Below are positions 17,718 to 44,431 of a stretch of 64,000 nt of DNA, piece after piece. Below the pieces are notes generated by a model. That model was not told where the DNA came from and searched no databases. It worked only from the letters and a program-made list of their open reading frames with translations. A program made the position numbers and the translations under genes. Location of the stretch: contig JAEUHN010000051.1 in NCBI GenBank assembly GCA_016795365.1, positions 124,001 through 188,000 on the forward strand. The letters are read 5' to 3'. This DNA is from Verrucomicrobiaceae bacterium. GTDB lineage: Bacteria; Verrucomicrobiota; Verrucomicrobiia; Verrucomicrobiales; Verrucomicrobiaceae. Numbering within the stretch: the first letter of the stretch is position 1; the number at the start of each line of letters is the position of its first letter.

Positions 17718-19895
17718 ATGGCCTCACTCGAAGCGTATCTGCCGCTCAATCCGTTTGTCGATCTCAGTGTCGGCGAGGCGGAGCTTTGGGGCACACGTGC
17801 TTGGATGGACGTGACGGAGATTCACGCCGCCCAGACAGCGCAGCTCCGCGCGGCCGTGGAGACCGTGAGAGCCAATGGCCGCACCCAGGTGCGATTCGTT
17901 CGTGGTGTCGGGGGTTCGGGCAAATCACACCTCTTTGCCCGGCTGCGGCGCGAGATGGGAGACTCGATCCTCTACGCTTACGCGCCGAATCCTCCACTGC
18001 AGCCCGCCACGCTAGAGGCCTTCCTTTTGCAGAAGATCGTGACCAGCCTGCGGCACAAGGCGCGCACGTCCTCTGGGGCCGATGCGTCCTACAGCCAGCT
18101 TCGACTGCTTGCTTATGCCTTGCTGCGGCCGGTCATCGAGCAGGGGGCGCTCGCCATCGAACAGCTGCACGAAGCGTGGTCCGAGATTTCCCTCGATGAT
18201 CAGAAGGCCCTGCTACACGATGCCATGCTCCTCCTTGAAGCCGAGCATCCCATGGTCGCCCGCGGCGTGCTGCGCTGCCTGCTGAACGTCTTGCGGGATG
18301 ACAAAGAGAACCTCGCCGGGCAATGGCTGGCCGGCACGCACTACCTGACGGAGGCTGATCTCAAGTTCCTTGGCGAGCCAGAACCGATGGGCACGGAGTT
18401 GCACGGTCCTGTGATTCATCTGCTCGGTAAACTTGCAGGTATGGCACAGCGTCCGTTCGTGCTCGTGCTTGATCAGCTCGACCTCGTGACCTCCACGGAT
18501 CAGCTCGACGAGTTCCAGCGCATGCTCTTTGCGCTGATCGATCAGAGTGAAAACTGGGCTGTCTTCATCGGTCTCGTCGGCGAGCGCTTTCGCTTCTGGG
18601 AGCAGAACATCAATCAGGCCATGCGTGGTCGCGTCGGCGTGCCCAGCCTTCACAATCCCGACCAGCCCACCCTGCCTGTCATCGACGTCACCCCCATCAT
18701 GGCGGCGGACAAGGAGGTGCTCATTCGTCGCCGTCTGGCCTCCCCCACTCTGCATCGTCAGCGCGAGGCGGATGGCATTGAATCGCCCCTCCATCCAATC
18801 AGCGATGCCGATCTCAAATTCCTCACCCACGGCGGTGCGGTGTATGCCCGTCACTTGCTGGCCGCGTGCTCTGAACGCTTTGCGCGTGCTGTGCTCGGCG
18901 GTGACGAGACCAATCGTGTGCCGCTCGCTGACAAAGTGGATGCGCTGCTCGAAGAAGCCGCTGACGAAGCCCGCAACGATGCAGCCCAAGTAGGCGGCCC
19001 CGAACTCGGTGAACGTATTCGAGAGCTGATCGAAGTCCTCGGCGACCAGCCCCTTTCGATCACGCCAGGGCCGTCGCGCGAACTGGCTGGCACCTTCACC
19101 GGCACGGATCACATCGTGCAGTCCAATGCTCAGCGCGCCCGCATCGTCTCTACCGACATGGGTCGTCGTGCTTTCGTCAGCCTGCTCGAATCAATGCAAA
19201 ACGAGACCGGCTCCACCCTGCTGATCCGCAGTGCTTCCTCACCGATCTCGGGGCCGGTGACCTTGGAGCTGTTCCGCCAGTTCAGGATTCGGAATCACTT
19301 CCATCAAGTGTCCGCCAGCGAGGCCGCCATATTGATGGCGCTCGGCACCGTGCTGGCCTCCCTGCGCGAGGGTAACTACGAGCAGCTGCTCACCGAACCA
19401 CCCGCGACACGCGACAGCATGATGGCGGCGTTGCGTGAGAACGGCAGACTGCGCTCGCTCCGCGTCTGGCAGGCCGTGCAGTCGGCTCTGGCAGGCAAGC
19501 CGCCACCGCCTTCTCGAACGCCCACCTCACGCACCTCTTTGACAGCTCGTGTCACCGCCGGCACCGAGGGCGAAGGTGGAGTCGCCACCGTCGTCGCACC
19601 TCCAGCCACCCTGCTCGCCACACCTCAGCGAAAGTCCGGCCCGGTGGCACCCGTGGAAAAGATTTCCCAGCACGCAATCGAGACGGTGCAGGTGCTGCTC
19701 AAGATGGAACGCTGGATGGAAGTGCGCCGCCTGCACCGCCGACTGGAGGAACTGGGCTGCCATTGCTCCATCGAATCCCTTCGCTACAGCCTTCGTCTGG
19801 CCCCGCTTGCCGAGTTTGCCATGCTGCATCCTCTCGATCCGTCAGACGCTGGCCACACTCCTCAAATCGTGCTCTGGCACGAGCCGCTGCACTGA
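17718..19895 (+). CDS. ORC/STAND-like P-loop ATPase, first gene of a two-gene ATPase module
   Basis: The 725-residue protein starts MASLEAYLPLNPFVDL behind a GGAGG site. A Walker A motif GVGGSGKS lies at about residues 63-70 and a Walker B FVLVLDQLDLV at about 247-257. The sensor-like strand WAVFIGLVGERF follows. The layout (P-loop, long helical insertion, LDQLD Walker B) resembles ORC/Cdc6- or STAND-type ATPases, not AAA+ chaperones. A proline/threonine-rich linker near residues 600-645 precedes a C-terminal domain of about 75 residues that looks like a winged helix (ETVQVLLKMERWMEVRRLHR). No transmembrane segment is visible. The next gene begins 1 bp after its stop. Function is unknown; an ATP-driven complex with its partner, in defence or DNA transactions, is inferred. 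Confidence 0.78.
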   Translation: MASLEAYLPLNPFVDLSVGEAELWGTRAWMDVTEIHAAQTAQLRAAVETVRANGRTQVRFVRGVGGSGKSHLFARLRREMGDSILYAYAPNPPLQPATLEAFLLQKIVTSLRHKARTSSGADASYSQLRLLAYALLRPVIEQGALAIEQLHEAWSEISLDDQKALLHDAMLLLEAEHPMVARGVLRCLLNVLRDDKENLAGQWLAGTHYLTEADLKFLGEPEPMGTELHGPVIHLLGKLAGMAQRPFVLVLDQLDLVTSTDQLDEFQRMLFALIDQSENWAVFIGLVGERFRFWEQNINQAMRGRVGVPSLHNPDQPTLPVIDVTPIMAADKEVLIRRRLASPTLHRQREADGIESPLHPISDADLKFLTHGGAVYARHLLAACSERFARAVLGGDETNRVPLADKVDALLEEAADEARNDAAQVGGPELGERIRELIEVLGDQPLSITPGPSRELAGTFTGTDHIVQSNAQRARIVSTDMGRRAFVSLLESMQNETGSTLLIRSASSPISGPVTLELFRQFRIRNHFHQVSASEAAILMALGTVLASLREGNYEQLLTEPPATRDSMMAALRENGRLRSLRVWQAVQSALAGKPPPPSRTPTSRTSLTARVTAGTEGEGGVATVVAPPATLLATPQRKSGPVAPVEKISQHAIETVQVLLKMERWMEVRRLHRRLEELGCHCSIESLRYSLRLAPLAEFAMLHPLDPSDAGHTPQIVLWHEPLH

Positions 19896-19896
19896 G

Positions 19897-21690
19897 ATGG
19901 AGCTGACCCGTTTTGCCATCACCACGGAGTTGAGGCACTCGCTGGAGCCTCTAATTCTCGATGCACTCTTCGAGTATGGTGCACGACGTCGTTCGGCAGC
20001 GGAAGACATCGACATCACGGCACCCATGCAGTTGACGATGGCCCAGGCCATCGAGGTGATTGCCGCGCAACAGCCACGCTGGAAGCAACATCTGGCGCCC
20101 GCCCTCTGCCATCTCAAGCTTCGCAGCCACGATCTTCCCCGGCGGACCGGCGTTCAGCTGCATGACATGCTCTCCGCCGCCCATCAATTTTTCCGGCATG
20201 AGGCAGCTCACACTTTCCGTGCCGCCGCGACGACACCGGAGACTCAAGAACGCTTTTCCATCCTTTGGACCGACTTCTTCTCGCGGTGCCTGCTCGACTG
20301 GCTGCGCGACCGCGACTTGATCAATGATCCTGAGCATCTCGATCTGGCCGATACGTTGGTGGAGTGCGCCAAGCTCTGGATTCGGCAAGTGGCTGAATCC
20401 GTGAGCGAGGATGCCGATCCTACGCAGTTTTTCCTCGATGCCGAACGCGATCTCACCGCCACTTTCCAGCGTGGCCCGGTGAAGCTGAAAATCGTCGGCA
20501 AGCCCGAGCCCATGCTGTTGCGCCCTCACAACGGCACGATCGAGTTGATTGAGTATCGCCTTGGCGAACCTGAGCTGGCCGAGCTACGAGTAGTTCAGGC
20601 GCTGCTGATGATGATCCTGATCGAGAAGGCGAAAGGTCTCACCTGCCAGCAGGCGCAGATGATCTTCTTCAGCAATGATTCCGCCAGTGGCTCGCGCATT
20701 CCGATGGAGGTCGAGACTGCCTTCAGTCGCTTCATTGGCAACGAACCAGCGGTGAAGCGATTGATGCAACAGGCTGCCCTCGTGCGCTCAGGCCGGACCT
20801 TGCGTGCCCCTTCCTGCCTGCTGATCACGGGCCCTGTAGGACATGGCAAGACGACGCTGGCTCGATGCTTCGCCCACGCTGCGGGCCGTCCCTTGGTGGA
20901 GGTCCAAAGTGCGAGCCTCGTCCACGGCGAAGACTTGCTCCACGCCGCCGACGAATGCCTCGAAGCCGCGAGTCTGAAGGCCGAACGGACCACGGACAGT
21001 GCCGGTCACCCAATGCTGCGCTACCCACCACTCGTCATCTTCCTCGACGATGTGCATGGACTCCGCCGCCGCGCGTCCGTCTGGCAGTCACTCATCACCA
21101 CGGCAGAGCGGCGTGTGGTCACACCCGAGGTGGAGGCTGATTTTTCCAGCTCGATCATCATCGCTGCGAGCGCGGAACCAATGAAGGTCCCGGAGGCACT
21201 GCTCGCAGGCTTCAGACGCATCGAGCTGGAACCCTATCGCCAGCACGACATCGCTCGCATGGTGGTGTCCACCTTCGAGCAGTCAAAGCTGGCCTTGCCC
21301 GAGCCTCTCGCCTTTCAGATCGCCAGCATGGGACGTTGCAATCCGCTACGTGCGCAGTTGTTTGCCAGCGAACTGCGTGATCGTCATCGCGCCAGCGCAT
21401 TGGCGATGCCGTTGAATCGCGAGAGCTTGCTGCGTCTGGCGAGATCGCAATGGCATGTCGATGAGCATGGCCTCGCTGACCGCGACTACCTCTATCTCCA
21501 GGCGTTGGAATCAGGGCCCAAGGGGCTCCCCGCGTTGCAGCACTTGCTGCCTATGCCTGACGAAGAGATTACCGTTCACATCGAGCCTTACCTTCAGCAC
21601 ATTGGTGCCATGCATCGCGGACCCCGCGGACGATCCCTCACCGTGCTGGGTGAGCAGCTCCTTCATCGCCATCGCTCACGCGAGCACTGA
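19897..21690 (+). CDS. RuvB-like AAA+ ATPase with N-terminal PD-(D/E)xK-like domain
   Basis: The start is ATG 19897, one base after the stop of the preceding ATPase; the longer open frame lies inside that gene. Of 597 residues, about 280-600 match RuvB: FIGNEPAVKRLM, Walker A GPVGHGKTTLA (312-322), Walker B LVIFLDDVHGL (379-389), sensor strand IIIAASAE. A C-terminal winged helix (GLADRDYLYLQALESGPKGL, then IEPYLQHIGAMHRGPRGRSLT) lines up with the RuvB DNA-binding domain. The N-terminal 280 residues are helical. They end in KIVGKPEPMLLRPHNGTIEL-IEYRLGE, then a helix, which looks like a RecB/Cas4-type PD-(D/E)xK core with Asp changed to Glu and the catalytic Lys replaced by Arg. It is not the housekeeping RuvB, which lacks the N-terminal part. 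Confidence 0.8.
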   Translation: MELTRFAITTELRHSLEPLILDALFEYGARRRSAAEDIDITAPMQLTMAQAIEVIAAQQPRWKQHLAPALCHLKLRSHDLPRRTGVQLHDMLSAAHQFFRHEAAHTFRAAATTPETQERFSILWTDFFSRCLLDWLRDRDLINDPEHLDLADTLVECAKLWIRQVAESVSEDADPTQFFLDAERDLTATFQRGPVKLKIVGKPEPMLLRPHNGTIELIEYRLGEPELAELRVVQALLMMILIEKAKGLTCQQAQMIFFSNDSASGSRIPMEVETAFSRFIGNEPAVKRLMQQAALVRSGRTLRAPSCLLITGPVGHGKTTLARCFAHAAGRPLVEVQSASLVHGEDLLHAADECLEAASLKAERTTDSAGHPMLRYPPLVIFLDDVHGLRRRASVWQSLITTAERRVVTPEVEADFSSSIIIAASAEPMKVPEALLAGFRRIELEPYRQHDIARMVVSTFEQSKLALPEPLAFQIASMGRCNPLRAQLFASELRDRHRASALAMPLNRESLLRLARSQWHVDEHGLADRDYLYLQALESGPKGLPALQHLLPMPDEEITVHIEPYLQHIGAMHRGPRGRSLTVLGEQLLHRHRSREH

Positions 21691-21697
21691 CGGGCCC

Positions 21698-23758
21698 TTA
21701 CTTCACCTTCTCGATCAGGCCGCGCACCACTTTGGCTGACACCGCCTCGTTAAGGGTCATGAGCGTCGGCTTGTCGCCATGATCATCGTCGCTAGCCGGC
21801 TTCTGATCGCCAAAAAGGGGCTGAATTCTGGCCACGTGCCCGATGGCATTGCCACACTCATCGAGCACGGCGGAACCGCTGCTGCCAGGAGCCCAGTCGG
21901 TGCTCACATTCATGCGATGGGAATCCACCGCACCCTCGATCTTCTGGTAGAGACGATTGACAATGCCGGTGCTGAAGTATCCACGAATGCCTCTTGGATC
22001 ACTGTAGCAGTAGGCTGAATCGCCAGGCTGCGGATCAGCATTCAAAGGCAAAGGCTGGAATGAATCCTTCGCCAGACTGAGCACGACCGTGTCATTCGCC
22101 TCGTCGGCCGCCACTACTGACTGGACACCTAGCACCTCATCCTCACCCTTCACCACCACCAGATGTCCAGATCCCGCCTTCATCGTTGCGGGTGGCTGAG
22201 CCACGTGATGGGCTGTGGCGACGGCATTGCGCGCGATCGCGTATCCGCCTGCGAGGTTGCTGTGCCATCGGTCGCACTTCGTGCATTGATACACCCATCC
22301 CACTCGCACATGCGCCGCTGCTGCCCGCTGGGCAATCTCACGTCCGCGAAGTGGTGCTGTCGCCACAGGAGGCAGTGCGATCGGCGCAGGCTTCGGCTGC
22401 TTGAGTTGAGCCGCGATCATGCTTCCCGAAGGTATGTTTCCAGCTTTGACGAGAGCCAGCGTTCTCTCGACCACGGCGCTCTGGACAACAGGCGGACTTG
22501 CAACCGGCTTGGTCGCCTCCGCACTCTTCCCGGCACCAGCCTTGCCAAGGTTGGCGAGCCCCCGTTCCAGCGTGCCACGCAAGGCTTCACCGCGCAGTTC
22601 CCTTGAAGTGCCGACGATGAGTCCGGTGGTTCCATCAACGAGCCAGCAGGAAGGTATGCCGCGCACACCATACAGATTGGCAATGCGTGATTCCCAGCCG
22701 AGACCATCACAGATCTGCGGCCATGTCATGTTCTTCTCCTTCGTGAAGGCGGGCAGCTTTCCTTTCGTTGCTTCGCTATCGAGCGAGATGCCCAGCACTT
22801 CGAATCCCTTGTCGTGAAACTCCTTGTAGGCGGCGGTGAGCCCGGGCAGTTCACGAATGCAGGGTCCGCACCATGTGGCCCAGAAGTCCAGCATGACCAG
22901 CTTGCCTTTGTAGTCGTCGGGGAACTTCACCTTCTTCCCGTCCGTCGTCTGATCCTCGAAGGCGATCGCCTTGCTGCCAATCCCAAGGGCCGTTGGCACC
23001 GCTTTCTCTTGGACCTTCTGAGTGCTCTTCACGATCTGAAATCGGCTGCCATCGGCAGTCATGCCCTCAATCTCATACGTGGTGCCTCCAATATTGAAGG
23101 GCTTGGAGGTGGCAAAGCGCTCGCTCTTGGTGTCAAAGCGACCGTCAGCGTTGATGTCCAGCAGGAGTGCGACATCGCTACCCGTGAAATCGCCGCGAGA
23201 CGTATCGTCCGAGAGCAGCGCCTTGAAGAACTTGTCACCGATCATCACATCGCCGCTCAGTCCGTAGTCACGATAGTAGAGCACAGTGGAGGCGAGAGAT
23301 TTGCGATTGGGATCGTTTTTATCAAAGCGGTAAACGTTGAGCCCCAGGGTCCGCTTTTCCGCTCCATACTCGATGGTCACCTGCCCGGCTCCCGACCACG
23401 TTGTGCTGCTCGCCGACTTGCGTGAACTCCAGTTCGCAGGCGGATCGTCTGTGAGGTCGCCGTTGGCATTCGAATCCAGCCAGAGCTTCGAAGGCCCATC
23501 GTCACGATCATCAATCAAAAGCGTCACCGTCGCGGGCTTGTCCTTGGGACCCAGCGTGAGAGTAGCGAAGGCTGGCACTGCCACGCCTTCCGGCACTCGC
23601 GTCACGTAAGCAGGCTTGTCCTTCGACAGCTCGGCGCGCACAGGCTTGTAGTAGCCTGTCTTTGGTGAGAAGCCGCCTGGCACCCACTTCAAGGTGATGT
23701 CTTCAGCAAGGGCTGCGGTCGCCGCAAATGCGATCAAAAGTAGGACTTTGGTTTTCAT
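21698..23758 (-). CDS. Secreted TlpA-like thioredoxin fused to a trypsin-like serine protease
   Basis: The start is ATG 23758 (MKTKVLLLIAFAATAALAED), a clean signal peptide, giving 686 residues. An N-terminal region of about 250 residues contains two calcium-loop-like motifs (LDSNANGDLTDD and LDINADGRFDTK). A TlpA/ResA thioredoxin domain follows, with C297-x2-C300 in DFWATWCGPC. After a Pro/Ala-rich linker, a trypsin-fold domain shows His in ATAHHV (about 517), Asp in DEANDTVVL (about 556) and Ser in APGSSGSAV (about 627). A CTKC pair in the protease domain (about 492-495) may bind metal or form a disulfide. The combination is unusual. A periplasmic redox and proteolytic role is inferred. Confidence 0.85.
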   Translation of the reverse strand: MKTKVLLLIAFAATAALAEDITLKWVPGGFSPKTGYYKPVRAELSKDKPAYVTRVPEGVAVPAFATLTLGPKDKPATVTLLIDDRDDGPSKLWLDSNANGDLTDDPPANWSSRKSASSTTWSGAGQVTIEYGAEKRTLGLNVYRFDKNDPNRKSLASTVLYYRDYGLSGDVMIGDKFFKALLSDDTSRGDFTGSDVALLLDINADGRFDTKSERFATSKPFNIGGTTYEIEGMTADGSRFQIVKSTQKVQEKAVPTALGIGSKAIAFEDQTTDGKKVKFPDDYKGKLVMLDFWATWCGPCIRELPGLTAAYKEFHDKGFEVLGISLDSEATKGKLPAFTKEKNMTWPQICDGLGWESRIANLYGVRGIPSCWLVDGTTGLIVGTSRELRGEALRGTLERGLANLGKAGAGKSAEATKPVASPPVVQSAVVERTLALVKAGNIPSGSMIAAQLKQPKPAPIALPPVATAPLRGREIAQRAAAAHVRVGWVYQCTKCDRWHSNLAGGYAIARNAVATAHHVAQPPATMKAGSGHLVVVKGEDEVLGVQSVVAADEANDTVVLSLAKDSFQPLPLNADPQPGDSAYCYSDPRGIRGYFSTGIVNRLYQKIEGAVDSHRMNVSTDWAPGSSGSAVLDECGNAIGHVARIQPLFGDQKPASDDDHGDKPTLMTLNEAVSAKVVRGLIEKVK

Positions 23759-23791
23759 AAAGGAATCGAGTGTGAACAAAGAACCAACAAA

Positions 23792-23821
23792 AAGGCCGGG
23801 CTCCTTTCGGAACCCGGCCTT
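23792..23821 (-). terminator. Rho-independent terminator of gap
   Basis: A perfect 9-bp stem (AAGGCCGGG with CCCGGCCTT, 12-nt loop) is followed on the minus strand by TTTTTG. It sits 23 bp past the gap stop codon. Confidence 0.88.
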
Positions 23822-23844
23822 CAAACGTTGCTCAGTGGCGAGTC

Positions 23845-25017
<1,173 letters not shown>

Positions 25018-38977: not shown

Positions 38978-41900
38978 TCAGCGGTAGATGTCCTCCAAGC
39001 GATGAGTGAGTGCCCGAGCTTTTGACCAGCCCGCATCCACTAACATGTCCAGCAGTCTAAGCAGCGCCTGAAGGCAATCAGAGTTCCCGTCTGTGGAAAC
39101 GCGGAGAACATGCCGATGATCAGAGAGCAGGCGGTGGATCAGTTTTTCGACGTCATCGACCACCAAACTCTCTTGAAGAAATCCCCATGCGTTACTCGTC
39201 TCAATCGCCTTCGCAGCGCAGAGGAAAGTCCGCGCGGGATCGGCGGGTTGTAGGTGAATCATGGCTTCCAACACATGATGCGCCGTATGGGGATGATACT
39301 CGTTCGCCAGAGCTTCGAAGAGATCGGCAGCCTCGTTCCAAAAACGTCGTGCTTGGGGTTGCGTGAGAGCATCTTCATCTTGGTTCTGCTTCGTGGCGAA
39401 AGCGCCGCTGCCAAAGAAAAGCTGGGCAGCGATACCATCGACGATGCGGCTCAAGGTGTCGATCTGGGCTTGCAGCTTTTGCTTCTGCTCTTTGTCGTCA
39501 GGGTTAGCTTCGTGGATGGCTTGCCACAGTAATCTTCGTTCCGAAAGCGTCTTCTGCGCGGTGAACAACAGTTCGCGAAAAAACCTCCAAGCCCGGGACC
39601 GATGTTCGTCAGCCTCGGTATCAGAAACAATGGCATCTCCAGCAGTTAACCAGCGTCCTTTTCGACAGCCGTGAAGTTGGGGAGTCAATGACCGTCCGAT
39701 GGCCTGTCCCTCACATCGGGCGATCCGAGTGGCAACATAGTCCCAACAGGATAGATCCCCGCAGCGCAAATAGCGGAAAAGAAAAGCGCTCATCAACTCC
39801 TCATGAATGTCGTGCTCATCCGGCGCGGTTGTTCCTGCACGTTCTGCAATGCGACGCATTCGAAGCAGTGCCTTATCGGGATCCTGAGATAGCAGTTCGC
39901 GAAGAGAGTCGAGAAGCCCGCTGAGCACCCGGAAAGTAGGTTCGGATTCGATTAGTGTGTCGATCAGTTCCCACATCAGTTGGGGAGCGGCTCCTCGTAT
40001 AGCAAACAAACTACTGGAGAGATGTTGACGCACAATCCTAGATCCATCAGTTGCCAAACGGCGCAGGGCCTTTGCAGTTGCGGCATCTATGTCACGGAGT
40101 CGGCAAACCAAGAACGGCAAGCCTTCGGCAGCATCGCTACGGGGAGATGGCCAAGCCCATGCTTCGAGCCTTTCCTCGCCCCTTAAATCTTCAGGGGCGA
40201 CGACAGGCAAAGGATCGGAAACGGCACGCAGCAAGATGCGTTGAGCAAAAGCAAAAAGCCCTTGGGCTCGAGGTGGCGGTCGTCGCCCGGCAAGTCTTGA
40301 GCAAGTTTGAGTCAGCCGTCCCCACAGATCGATTGTCTGCTCAGGATGAGTTGCCCGGCACTTCCTTATGAGCCTGTCCGCACGCCGAAGAAGCGCGAGA
40401 TCATCGCTGGCAGTTTTAGCGGACACCTTGGTGGCATTGTCCCTCTGCCTAATCGCATCGAGGGATTGCGACATTGTTACAATTGAATCAGCAGTTGGAT
40501 CAGCTCCTTCTGGCTGGTCTGGGATGGGCGCACCTCCAAGGCTCGGCAGAAACTGCGTCAGGGAGCTAGGCTGACGATTACGTCTCAATTCTCCTGCGGC
40601 TTGCCTCGTCCGCCAAAGTGTCAGGGTCTCGGCGAGGGCGATATTCGTTCCATCAAGCTCTCCAAGAATGATGTCCTGCACGTAGATGATCCACTCTGGC
40701 GTCGGCTCACGCTGGTCTTCACATCGAAGTGGAGTTGTCCGGGGCAGCCCCAAGAGCGTCCGCTCCAATCTTATTCGGCGTTTTTTGTCTCCTGCCCGAT
40801 GCAACGCGGCGAAAAGCGCCACGGCTCCGTATCTGTAATCGGGCATCGTTAGCATCAGCGGTTCATGCACTGCTTCCTCCAGCAGTTCCCCCAGTTCTGC
40901 CACATGCTGACTTGCGATCTCCAACACTGTCTGCCAGACAACTGCTGAACGATTTTCCCGCGCAAGCGTGTCCACGACCGCCTCCAATGCCGGACGATCA
41001 GCATCATCACACCAGTGATGGAGTCGTTGTTCGAAGGAATTGAGAATTGTGTTCTCCTCGTGTTCGAACTGTCGTCCCAAGTTCGAACTCCCATCGCTTT
41101 TCAGCTCGCACTCGGTTCCTCTGATAGTGAATGTAGCCTGAAAGCATTTCGAAGGCCGTGACCACCGTCTGCCCTGACGTTCCTCTACTGCATTCCAAGC
41201 TATGCACACGAGAGTGGCAGCGAGTCCAGGGTCCATTTTGTCTGCCCCCTGATAATACTCTGCCAGCGAGTAGCGGTTGAGTTCCCAATCCTGACGTGTC
41301 TCTGTCCGGAAAGGAAGAATGAGTGATCCGCTTGTTCGATGCTCGCCGCTATTCGGTGCGGTAGAAAAGGACACGTCAAACAGCCGCTTTACCACTGCAT
41401 CACCGTGTGGACCGAGGTGCTTGATTTCATGAGCGAGGTCGAACAAATCCTCGTGGGGGAAGAGTGCAACGCGCTCGGTGGCCATGATGGCTAGAAGCAT
41501 CCTTTCGCTTTCAACTCGCTGGCAGTCAAAGGTGCGGCAGATCGCTCTGGTCGCCGTCGCCGCAACGTATCGCCATCCTCTGTTCACAGGCTTCGTGAGA
41601 TGGTGAGAAAGCAGATGTCGTCCGGCCTCATTGAGGTTTTGGCGATCAGGTTCCTGCTGTGCTGCCTCCACATCTAAAAGTCGCACCAGCAGGAACAAAA
41701 TGGGCGACTCAAGGGACGGATGCTCCGACAGCATTGCGCCCAACTTCCTGGCGTAGTTACACCAAACTGGCGAAGCATTCCGAATCGATTCAGATGATAC
41801 ATCGGCAAGACCTGTCGATAAGTGTAGTGCAGTCTTGATCACGGACCGAATATCAGGTCGAGATTGGCTCATTGCACTTAGCAGAGGAGCAACATCAGTC

Positions 41901-44029
41901 TGCGCTGTAACCCTGTGCGCAGCAACCAACGGGCCTTGGATCCGTGTAATGCTACGTAGCTGTGGGCTTTCCTGCATCCTTATGCACGCATTCCAGAAAT
42001 CTAGCGCATTAGGGCCTGCATCCCACATTTCGTGCAAGGCCATTCTAAAGCTCGACAGGTAGAGAATGGGGGCCAACGGCTCCCGTTCAGCGAAAGCAAC
42101 AAATGGTTCTGCCACCAACGGAATCAGCGCCTTTGCGATCACATAATCATGGAGCAAGTGGTGACTGAATCGGATGGCTTCATCGCCAACGCGCGCACCA
42201 TGCTTGATCGCTGGACCCTGGAGAATGCCGCGGCTGCGGAGATCATTTACTGCGTCGCGTTGTGCTGAGTTGAACGCCAGCTCTTTAATCGAAAGTGACA
42301 TGCTGCGGCGGGTCAACATTTGCCTGCAAATCGCGTGCAGCGCCGCCTCACGATCACCGGAGCCAGCACCTTCGCCAATGCGTATGTCCCAGAACCTCCG
42401 AAGTAGAAGAGTAGGGCTGCTCCAATCCGCCAGCTGAGAAGGTGAGACACCCGCTCTCAGCAGGTCAGAAGCGAGTCGCAAGAAGAAGGGCGAGCGGTGC
42501 AGCTCTTCAGAGCGATTTGACCGCCTAGCGCTTGCGACAAACGGCTCGATCTCCATTCGCGTTTGCACCAAGCAGTCCAGTTCCTGTTCCCTCAATCGAC
42601 CAAGATGAAAATGGGAAACTCCGGCAAAGTCCTCGGATGAGTGATCGGTCACACCGTCCCCAGGAAACAATTCGCGCAACTGTTGGCTGTGCTTCAAGTC
42701 AAATTCACGAACACTCGCGATCACCGTCCATTGCGACTCGCCACGCAAGATCCTCTCTAACAACCGCCTCAGCTTTGCTTGCAAATCAGGATCGCGGACC
42801 GCATCAAGGGCGTCAGTGATGAGGTAACCGGGAACACCGTCTGGCCAATGCGCTAGCACATCGTCCAGCTCATGTTGAAGTCGAGTGAGAGCACCACAAC
42901 TGGTCCACTGACTATCCTCCATCTCCTCCGCGAGCATCAAGACCACAGGCAGGCCTTTCAGATGGAGTTCTTCTACCAACCTGTGTATTAGCCCGCTCTT
43001 CCCACAACCGGGTTCTCCAGTTAGCAGCCTGTGGCCTTTCTTTAACGAAGTCCAAAAGGCAGCCATTTCAGCCTCACGAGGTAAATGAACTTCCTCCTCC
43101 GTCGTCGAACCGAATCTCAGATAGCGGTGCTCTCGAAGTCGGGCGAGGTTGCTCTTCGTCATCTTTGTCAGCAGGGCAACATCGTCCGAGTAGTCGAGTT
43201 CGCTCTTCAATCGAATCCCGTTCGACGTGAGGAATGAACGAAGCTGTTGGGGACGAAGTTTGAGTCCCCGGCGATTCGCATCGCTTAATGCTTCACGTAG
43301 AACCGACCAGGCGAGTGGTGTGTCTGGTGTCTTGGTAAGGACATGGGTAGCTAGTTCGCTTTGAGCCAGCCTGTCATGGTATGATCCACCGCCAAAATCG
43401 AAGACTTCAACGTGAATGCGTGACACAAGTGCCTGCACGGTCTCACTCGAAACCGAAGCGCCAGTGAGCCGTCTCCAGCGCGCGCTGACAATCTTGATGA
43501 GAGCACCAAGGGCATCTCGTTCTTTGGAAGTCCTTCGGCGCAAGAAGTCCGCATGATCATCGACGGGCATCTCAGCCCGATATGCCTTCAATGCTTCGCG
43601 CAGATGGAACGTGACCGGCAAGCCTGCGGTCGATGGCAAAGCCCAAACGAATCTCGACTGAAAGCGATGCGGCTCCGGTAATGCGAAATACTGCTCAACC
43701 AACGATTCAATCACTTCTGAAAATGTCCCTTTGCCCGAACCGAGAGACACGGACCCAGTTCTGCGCTTTGCCGAGAAGAAGACTTTACCTCCACTCGCGT
43801 CTCGCAGATCGAGAACTGCGTCATCAACGACGTCGTCCGTTTGCAGAGCCAAACTAGAAATCTCGCACGCCGATACGCCATCGAGAATCTCGACGCTGCC
43901 TCCGATCAGCATTCGGGAGGCAAGCCAGCATGCAACGTCCACCTCATAACCGACGCCTCCAGACGTATTCCTCCCGCCAAACTGACGTTTGGTTGAAATC
44001 GCAGATTTGCCGGGAGGGGCTTTGTTCAT
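38978..44029 (-). CDS. Avs-like STAND NTPase with N-terminal Cap4/DUF4297-like nuclease domain
   Basis: The start is ATG 44029 (MNKAPPGKSAIST; a TTG six codons upstream is less likely), giving 1,683 residues. Residues about 20-150 resemble the DUF4297/Cap4 nuclease: GVGYEVDVACWL, then DDVVDDAVLDLRDASGGKVF and FSAKRR (a PD-(D/E)xK-like acidic plus Lys core). A STAND ATPase follows, with P-loop GEPGCGKS at about 338-345, Walker B GYLITDALDAV at about 401-411, and VIASVREFD. The rest, over 1,100 residues, is helical, of the type used for target sensing. This is the architecture of Avs/AVAST antiphage proteins, where the C-terminus recognises phage proteins and the nuclease kills the infected cell. 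The target is unknown. Base composition is lower in GC than in the neighbours. Confidence 0.82.
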   Translation of the reverse strand: MNKAPPGKSAISTKRQFGGRNTSGGVGYEVDVACWLASRMLIGGSVEILDGVSACEISSLALQTDDVVDDAVLDLRDASGGKVFFSAKRRTGSVSLGSGKGTFSEVIESLVEQYFALPEPHRFQSRFVWALPSTAGLPVTFHLREALKAYRAEMPVDDHADFLRRRTSKERDALGALIKIVSARWRRLTGASVSSETVQALVSRIHVEVFDFGGGSYHDRLAQSELATHVLTKTPDTPLAWSVLREALSDANRRGLKLRPQQLRSFLTSNGIRLKSELDYSDDVALLTKMTKSNLARLREHRYLRFGSTTEEEVHLPREAEMAAFWTSLKKGHRLLTGEPGCGKSGLIHRLVEELHLKGLPVVLMLAEEMEDSQWTSCGALTRLQHELDDVLAHWPDGVPGYLITDALDAVRDPDLQAKLRRLLERILRGESQWTVIASVREFDLKHSQQLRELFPGDGVTDHSSEDFAGVSHFHLGRLREQELDCLVQTRMEIEPFVASARRSNRSEELHRSPFFLRLASDLLRAGVSPSQLADWSSPTLLLRRFWDIRIGEGAGSGDREAALHAICRQMLTRRSMSLSIKELAFNSAQRDAVNDLRSRGILQGPAIKHGARVGDEAIRFSHHLLHDYVIAKALIPLVAEPFVAFAEREPLAPILYLSSFRMALHEMWDAGPNALDFWNACIRMQESPQLRSITRIQGPLVAAHRVTAQTDVAPLLSAMSQSRPDIRSVIKTALHLSTGLADVSSESIRNASPVWCNYARKLGAMLSEHPSLESPILFLLVRLLDVEAAQQEPDRQNLNEAGRHLLSHHLTKPVNRGWRYVAATATRAICRTFDCQRVESERMLLAIMATERVALFPHEDLFDLAHEIKHLGPHGDAVVKRLFDVSFSTAPNSGEHRTSGSLILPFRTETRQDWELNRYSLAEYYQGADKMDPGLAATLVCIAWNAVEERQGRRWSRPSKCFQATFTIRGTECELKSDGSSNLGRQFEHEENTILNSFEQRLHHWCDDADRPALEAVVDTLARENRSAVVWQTVLEIASQHVAELGELLEEAVHEPLMLTMPDYRYGAVALFAALHRAGDKKRRIRLERTLLGLPRTTPLRCEDQREPTPEWIIYVQDIILGELDGTNIALAETLTLWRTRQAAGELRRNRQPSSLTQFLPSLGGAPIPDQPEGADPTADSIVTMSQSLDAIRQRDNATKVSAKTASDDLALLRRADRLIRKCRATHPEQTIDLWGRLTQTCSRLAGRRPPPRAQGLFAFAQRILLRAVSDPLPVVAPEDLRGEERLEAWAWPSPRSDAAEGLPFLVCRLRDIDAATAKALRRLATDGSRIVRQHLSSSLFAIRGAAPQLMWELIDTLIESEPTFRVLSGLLDSLRELLSQDPDKALLRMRRIAERAGTTAPDEHDIHEELMSAFLFRYLRCGDLSCWDYVATRIARCEGQAIGRSLTPQLHGCRKGRWLTAGDAIVSDTEADEHRSRAWRFFRELLFTAQKTLSERRLLWQAIHEANPDDKEQKQKLQAQIDTLSRIVDGIAAQLFFGSGAFATKQNQDEDALTQPQARRFWNEAADLFEALANEYHPHTAHHVLEAMIHLQPADPARTFLCAAKAIETSNAWGFLQESLVVDDVEKLIHRLLSDHRHVLRVSTDGNSDCLQALLRLLDMLVDAGWSKARALTHRLEDIYR

Positions 44030-44431
44030 GGAATCATCTGGAGCCAAGTAATCTTTGCTCGTCCGGCAGAGTATGCGGTAGCAATCGAGCTAGCAACGAA
44101 CAACAGAGCAAGGGAGTTTGGCCTCTCTCCTACAGCGTGTTTGATCTCAACTTCTTCTCGCCCGCTGGCACTGCCAACCACTTCCTGGCCTCTGCCGTCT
44201 GTCCAGCGACAGCATTCATGCCGCCATCACTGCGTGTGGGATAGTCTCGGATCACTGTGAACGGTGATTATTACCCCGCATCCCCACCACAAAAACCGCA
44301 CCACTGAACACATCGACGACGTCTGACGGAAGTGTTTCATGGAATTCGATGCCGGGTGGCACGGAAAGTTCTAGCGAGGGTGGTCTGGCGCGGGATGTCC
44401 TCCGGGCGTCGGGTTGGGATTCTTCATTGGA
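44030..44431. other. Gene-free gap between the defence gene and the AspT-like transporter
   Basis: About 400 bp without a supported gene. It holds the likely promoter of the leftward NTPase and an imperfect inverted repeat with ATCAC/GTGAT arms at 44251-44268. A 29-codon minus-strand frame at about 44219-44130 has no recognisable product. No insertion-sequence ends or tRNA gene were seen. Confidence 0.6.
44068..44096 (-). promoter_or_regulatory. Weak candidate promoter of the Avs-like gene
   Basis: On the minus strand, TTGCTA and TACTCT are separated by 17 bp, ending 38 bp before the ATG at 44029. The match to consensus is only moderate. Confidence 0.3.

Follow-up and report, generated by a model that had tools for sequence, protein, structure and literature searches.

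An accessory ORC-like ATPase gene adjoining a RuvB-derived AAA+ gene in Verrucomicrobiaceae, and a candidate third partner

The closest described relatives of the locus reported here are the ORC/Cdc6-like ATPases of the BrxC/BrxD clade and the systems related to bacteriophage exclusion (BREX) in which an ORC-like ATPase is combined with a DNA-binding module (PMC12839542). A second point of reference is RuvB, whose arginine finger is Arg171 and whose wing contacts DNA through R297, R300, and R302 (PMC9477746, PMC10272136). Here, we analyzed a 64,000-nt stretch of the genome of a Verrucomicrobiaceae bacterium (assembly GCA_016795365.1, contig JAEUHN010000051.1, positions 124,001 to 188,000), hereafter called the window, which contains two neighboring genes: P1, encoding an ORC/STAND-like P-loop ATPase, and P2, encoding a RuvB-derived AAA+ protein. 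A literature search turned up no example of a RuvB-derived partner of an ORC-like ATPase. We tentatively interpret the pair, with somewhat less than even confidence, as part of an accessory, lineage-specific, nucleotide-gated, DNA-binding AAA+ assembly, in which P1 would be the core, a third protein (P3) its constant partner, and P2 a non-motor DNA-binding subunit.

The P1–P2 gene pair and the ancestry of its products

The two open reading frames (ORFs) are listed below with their ratios of nonsynonymous to synonymous divergence (dN/dS), where given.

17718–19895, + strand: P1, 725-amino-acid ORC/STAND-like P-loop ATPase, the putative core component (ORF from ATG to stop; AAA_16 match; BrxC_BrxD matches in homologues; dN/dS 0.06)
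19897–21690, + strand: P2, 597-amino-acid RuvB-derived AAA+ protein (ORF from ATG to stop; AAA and RuvB_C matches; Foldseek matches)

The genes lie on the same strand with 1 bp between them, and their junction, TGA-G-ATG, was unchanged in a second genome of the same genus (G001). A first-pass annotation made from the letters of the window had described a P-loop ATPase gene adjoining a RuvB-type AAA+ gene, and the ORFs, their translations, and the Pfam matches bear this out. Protein identity to G001 was 92% for P1 and 90% for P2. The dN/dS values against G001, which are approximate because some synonymous distances were close to saturation, were 0.060 for P1 and 0.064 for P2, the same level as for der (0.059). 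Because these values are low and similar to that of der, P1 and P2 are real genes under strong purifying selection and not chance ORFs. Meanwhile, the proportion of synonymous differences from G001 was 0.47 for P1 and 0.57 for P2, as against 0.23–0.37 for nine other genes of the region, and the G+C content at third codon positions was lower in P1 and P2 than in der and pgk; these two features reflect either a weaker bias in codon usage or a separate history. An overlapping gene at the 3′ end of P1, where synonymous divergence is low, was considered and rejected, the value being ordinary among the genes of the window. A scan for promoters and terminators returned nothing beyond the chance level.

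The following features were recognized in P1.

17718–18902, + strand: ATPase domain (residues 1–395), the most constrained part of the pair (dN/dS 0.022; weak collinear alignment with BrxD)
17904–17927, + strand: Walker A motif GVGGSGKS (residues 63–70; GxGGSGKS invariant in 18 homologues)
18459–18482, + strand: Walker B-like motif VLVLDQLD (residues 248–255; DQLD invariant in 18 homologues)
18912–19517, + strand: middle domain (residues 399–600), conserved in all homologues and without a family match in the libraries scanned
19668–19892, + strand: C-terminal helical domain, possibly winged-helix-like in fold (alignment; dN/dS 0.044)

Both nucleotide-binding motifs had been noticed in the first pass, and they proved to be conserved: the P-loop GxGGSGKSHLF was common to all 18 P1 homologues compared, with DQLD invariant at the Walker B position. 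P1 matched the Pfam family AAA_16 above its cut-off, and 16 of the 18 homologues matched BrxC_BrxD (PF10923) at E<0.01. The P1 of the window scored 14.9 bits against PF10923, for which the cut-off is 22.2, and one homologue from a genus designated g9 exceeded the cut-off (24.1 bits) across 43 residues only. When the P1 profile was aligned (hhalign) with five BrxD proteins of the same bacterial family, the two were collinear over 309 columns, although the alignment was weak (E 0.0011). P1 shares with BrxC/BrxD the P-loop, a long insert after strand 2, a WLxG...LG motif, and the order of motifs over these 309 columns, but it lies under the family cut-off in the window and has no BREX partner genes nearby. 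Because the BrxD alignment is weak and the one match above the cut-off spans 43 residues, we grade P1, on sequence comparison, as distantly related to the ORC/Cdc6-like BrxC/BrxD clade and not as a BrxC or BrxD itself. The matches of P1 to STAND proteins were limited to weak NACHT/nSTAND hits. In the alignment, the g9 homologues carry a proline-rich tail in place of the C-terminal helical domain. As a separate observation, the window's genome also encodes a canonical full-length BrxD apart from P1 (contig C40, 209670–210887, locus L088; PF10923 E 3.8e-141), and in two similar loci (L089 and L090) a PglZ-like ORF adjoins BrxD.

The following features were recognized in P2.

19897–20421, + strand: N-terminal helical region (residues 1–175; dN/dS 0.035; helices in a low-confidence model; no known family)
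20422–20712, + strand: degenerate PD-(D/E)XK-like stretch (residues 176–272; GKPEPMLLRP...IELIEYRLGE...Q; motif seen by eye)
20713–21456, + strand: RuvB-like AAA+ large and small domains (aligned with the RuvB of the same genome; neither the arginine finger nor the trans-acidic motif remains, and the presensor hairpin is shorter)
20830–20853, + strand: Walker A motif GPVGHGKT (residues 312–319)
21034–21051, + strand: Walker B motif VIFLDD (residues 380–385; VLAVDH in the genome of the other P2-bearing genus, G010)
21457–21687, + strand: RuvB-type winged-helix head (RuvB_C E 3.8e-10; dN/dS 0.033)
21583–21633, + strand: EPYLQHIGAMHRGPRGR within the winged-helix head (residues 563–579)

P2 exceeded the Pfam cut-offs for both AAA (E 1.4e-11) and RuvB_C (E 3.8e-10). 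Residues 276–590 aligned end to end with the genome's own RuvB (hhalign, 98.6%, E 1.2e-15) and retain the three-domain RuvB architecture with its winged-helix head; the 39 best Protein Data Bank matches found by Foldseek with the P2 model (a weak one, with a predicted local distance difference test score, pLDDT, of 48) were all RuvB. The retention of the winged-helix signature EPYLQHIGAMHRGPRGR and the N-terminal addition put at about 280 residues in the first pass both stand, the addition measuring about 275 residues relative to RuvB. The true ruvB sits elsewhere in the genome, on contig C16 (E 2.3e-75), and P2 is not the genome's ruvB. Judged from these comparisons, P2 is a duplicated and repurposed copy of RuvB.

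The degeneration of the motor in P2 had been missed by the first-pass annotation. Taking the reference residues from the RuvB studies cited above and the alignment to the genome's own RuvB, we found that the equivalent of Arg171 is a leucine in all three P2 proteins, that the trans-acting acidic motif is missing, and that the presensor insertion, which forms the RuvA-contacting β-hairpin in RuvB, is 7 residues shorter and unlike RuvB in sequence. Because the arginine finger is lost, P2 is probably not an autonomous RuvB-type ring motor. The Walker B motif ends in DD (DH in G010), and the three wing positions that contact DNA stay basic, being R/R/R in the window (RGPRGR) and R/K/R in G010 (RTPKGR).

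The additional N-terminal part had been proposed to include a nuclease-like head. Its residues 176–245 do show the motif spacing of PD-(D/E)XK nucleases of the Cas4/RecB type (G-x-P-E...E-Y-R...Q), but the catalytic positions are substituted (P-E...E-Y-R in the window's genus) and not conserved in the P2 of G010, the only distant P2 homologue. Furthermore, residues 176–272 are the least constrained part of the protein, with a dN/dS of 0.166 as against 0.033–0.054 for the rest of P2. We rejected a nuclease head for these reasons.

The third protein and the distribution of the components

P3, which the first pass had also missed, is encoded outside the window. In the window's genome it is a 272-amino-acid protein on contig C13 (21079–21897), unlinked to P1 and P2, and in G001 it is likewise unlinked to the pair (contig 259). 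In genus g9, each of the 15 P1 loci examined has P3 (about 284 amino acids) immediately before P1, and G047 and G054 likewise carry P3 next to P1, in surroundings that differ. Profile searches of 68 genomes of the family found P3 in 22, every one of which also has P1, and in none of the 44 P1-negative genomes (Fisher p 7e-16 for P1–P3 co-occurrence, relatedness ignored). The two P1-bearing genomes lacking P3 are G057, in which P1 runs off the start of a contig, and G010. The N-terminus of P3 gave sub-threshold Pfam winged-helix matches and is probably a winged helix, whereas the C-terminus is highly conserved, ending in GPPGYSWCW in g9. Homology of P3 to the P1 C-terminus, the P1 middle domain, or P2 was considered, and hhalign found none. 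The combination of an ORC/Cdc6-like ATPase with a separate DNA-binding protein recalls the BREX-related systems (PMC12839542); however, the core genes of those systems (PglZ, methyltransferase, HerA/FtsK, or others) were not found with P1/P3, and P3 has no Pfam match to their DNA-binding families.

Homologues of P1 were present in 24 of the 68 family genomes, in three genera. A sample of 388 genomes from across the phylum contained 2 with a P1 homologue, both belonging to this family. When P1 was placed on the der tree, its pattern required 6 changes, as compared with 17.2 for shuffled labels; in other words, the distribution is accessory yet mostly follows clades. P2 occurred in 3 of the 68 genomes, in the window's genus and one other only, and P1 and P2 were neighbors in three genomes, which represent two genera, the surroundings in G010 being unrelated to those in the window. 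A scan of all species with P2 alone recovered only the same-genus copy; because this was the sole scan reaching beyond the phylum, wider relatives may exist outside it. P1 and P2 were not found as such in 72,556 plasmids, 50,697 phages, or viral contigs, and the few matches of P2 in these collections were RuvB-like AAA+ matches.

The left neighbor of the pair is der. Linkage to der was rejected, since the downstream neighbor of der varies among the genera inspected and the pair in G010 does not adjoin der; the first-pass annotation had named synteny with der as a test, and the pair is not tied to that gene and has an accessory distribution. A link between P3–P1 and the hydrolase genes upstream of it was also rejected: the hydrolase is present in 56 of the 68 genomes, and neither the P1-negative genomes inspected nor the window's genome have P3–P1 next to it.

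Possible roles of the assembly

In the DNA-binding assembly that we favor, P1 would form the core, as an ORC/Cdc6-like ATPase acting probably as a nucleotide-driven switch or scaffold, with P3 as its constant partner. P2, added in two genera, would have lost its motor role while keeping the P-loop for ATP binding and the wing that grips DNA, and would most likely work with P1 as a subunit or clamp that binds ATP and DNA. Such an arrangement would be analogous to ORC and to clamp loaders, which mix active and inactive AAA+ subunits. We infer the physical complex of P1, P2, and P3, its nucleotide gating, and its DNA binding. If this is true, a housekeeping DNA motor has been turned into a static DNA-binding subunit, in that a RuvB without its arginine finger has been joined to a BREX-like ORC ATPase; the co-occurrence of P1 and P3 supplies a defined, testable three-gene set. 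An extension of the idea, which we consider conceivable but unlikely, is that a BrxC-like ORC ATPase, a P3 adaptor, and a RuvB-derived non-motor clamp constitute an unnamed three-protein system of one bacterial family, which would recognize a particular state of DNA and hold on to it, in the service of immunity or of genome maintenance.

Several observations weigh against the proposed assembly. The probability of the P1–BrxD profile alignment was just 21%, and the AlphaFold models of P1 (pLDDT 37, unusable) and P2 were too low in confidence for complex modelling. The tree contrasts for P1 and P3 were not significant (4 independent contrasts, 3.2 agreeing on average and 0 opposing), and the winged-helix reading of P3 draws on matches below threshold. 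Furthermore, G010 carries P1 and P2 with no detectable P3, so P3 is not always needed.

The first-pass annotation had suggested a DNA-handling or defence complex, of which the two-ATPase, probably DNA-handling, accessory module is supported and the defence role is not. An anti-phage or anti-plasmid system, in which P1 would be a BrxC/STAND-like sensor, P2 and P3 would recognize foreign DNA, and a domain not yet recognized (the P1 middle domain or the P2 N-terminus) would be the effector, is rather unlikely. It would fit the distant relationship of P1 to BrxC/BrxD, the accessory spread (24 of 68 genomes, for which the der tree calls for no fewer than 6 gains or losses), the several unrelated chromosomal contexts, a toxin-like ORF upstream of P3–P1 in G047, and the synonymous divergence of P1 and P2 above that of the neighbors tested. 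However, PADLOC 2023 gave no family match for P1 or P2 (best 18.1 bits, in the P-loop region only), ten neighbors of the pair scanned in the same way matched no specific defence model, and the two G010 neighbors with PADLOC matches, a kinase and a cyclic-nucleotide (cNMP)-binding domain, are probably generic. The neighbors are housekeeping or secreted-enzyme genes, and no nuclease was identified alongside; neither were PglZ, methyltransferase, or BrxA/B-like genes among the neighboring ORFs in the window, G010, and the g9 loci. The clade-like rather than scattered distribution and the lack of copies in the plasmid, phage, and viral-contig collections also count against defence. The earlier statement that no named system could be assigned holds, as none of the libraries placed P1/P2 in a named system.

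The retained DNA-gripping head of a RuvB-derived P2, the ORC/Cdc6-type partner P1, the strong der-like purifying selection, and the synteny of P1, which is stable within the main clade of g9, would also suit an accessory of genome maintenance, in which P2 would serve as a second RuvB-like protein acting on intermediates of recombination or replication, with P1 loading or regulating it in the manner of an initiator or clamp loader. This is improbable, given that a true RuvB is encoded on contig C16, that P2 lacks the arginine finger and some of the RuvA contact, and that most family genomes lack P1 and only 3 of 68 have P2. A lineage-specific regulator, with P1 and P3 (and P2) forming a DNA-binding complex that would control transcription of a local regulon in an ATP-dependent way, without DNA processing, is very improbable: P2 has a winged-helix head, P3 may hold a winged helix, P3–P1 adjoins conserved hydrolase genes in the main g9 clade, and no enzymatic effector was identified, but the neighboring genes vary between genera and between g9 lineages, and AAA+ proteins of this type are rarely regulators.

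Neighboring genes and other observations

The right neighbor of the pair is a secreted thioredoxin/trypsin-like gene (21698–23905). The flanking genes given in the first pass, der on the left and a secreted-protein gene on the right, are correct for the window, but the right one is not constant: a 2.1-kb segment (21691–23782) carrying this gene is gone from the same site in G001, by insertion or deletion. In the genome of the other P2-bearing genus, a Ser/Thr kinase gene (L043, 11784–13016) adjoins the pair and matches defence-kinase models, probably generically. The toxin-like ORF of G047 (L135, 841–1098), recognized by eye, is of the RelE/ParE type. Within the window, 17 kb from the pair, the − strand at 38978–44047 encodes a 1689-amino-acid protein that matches the candidate defence family PDC-M54A (E 4.4e-206) and has weak similarity to Avs2.

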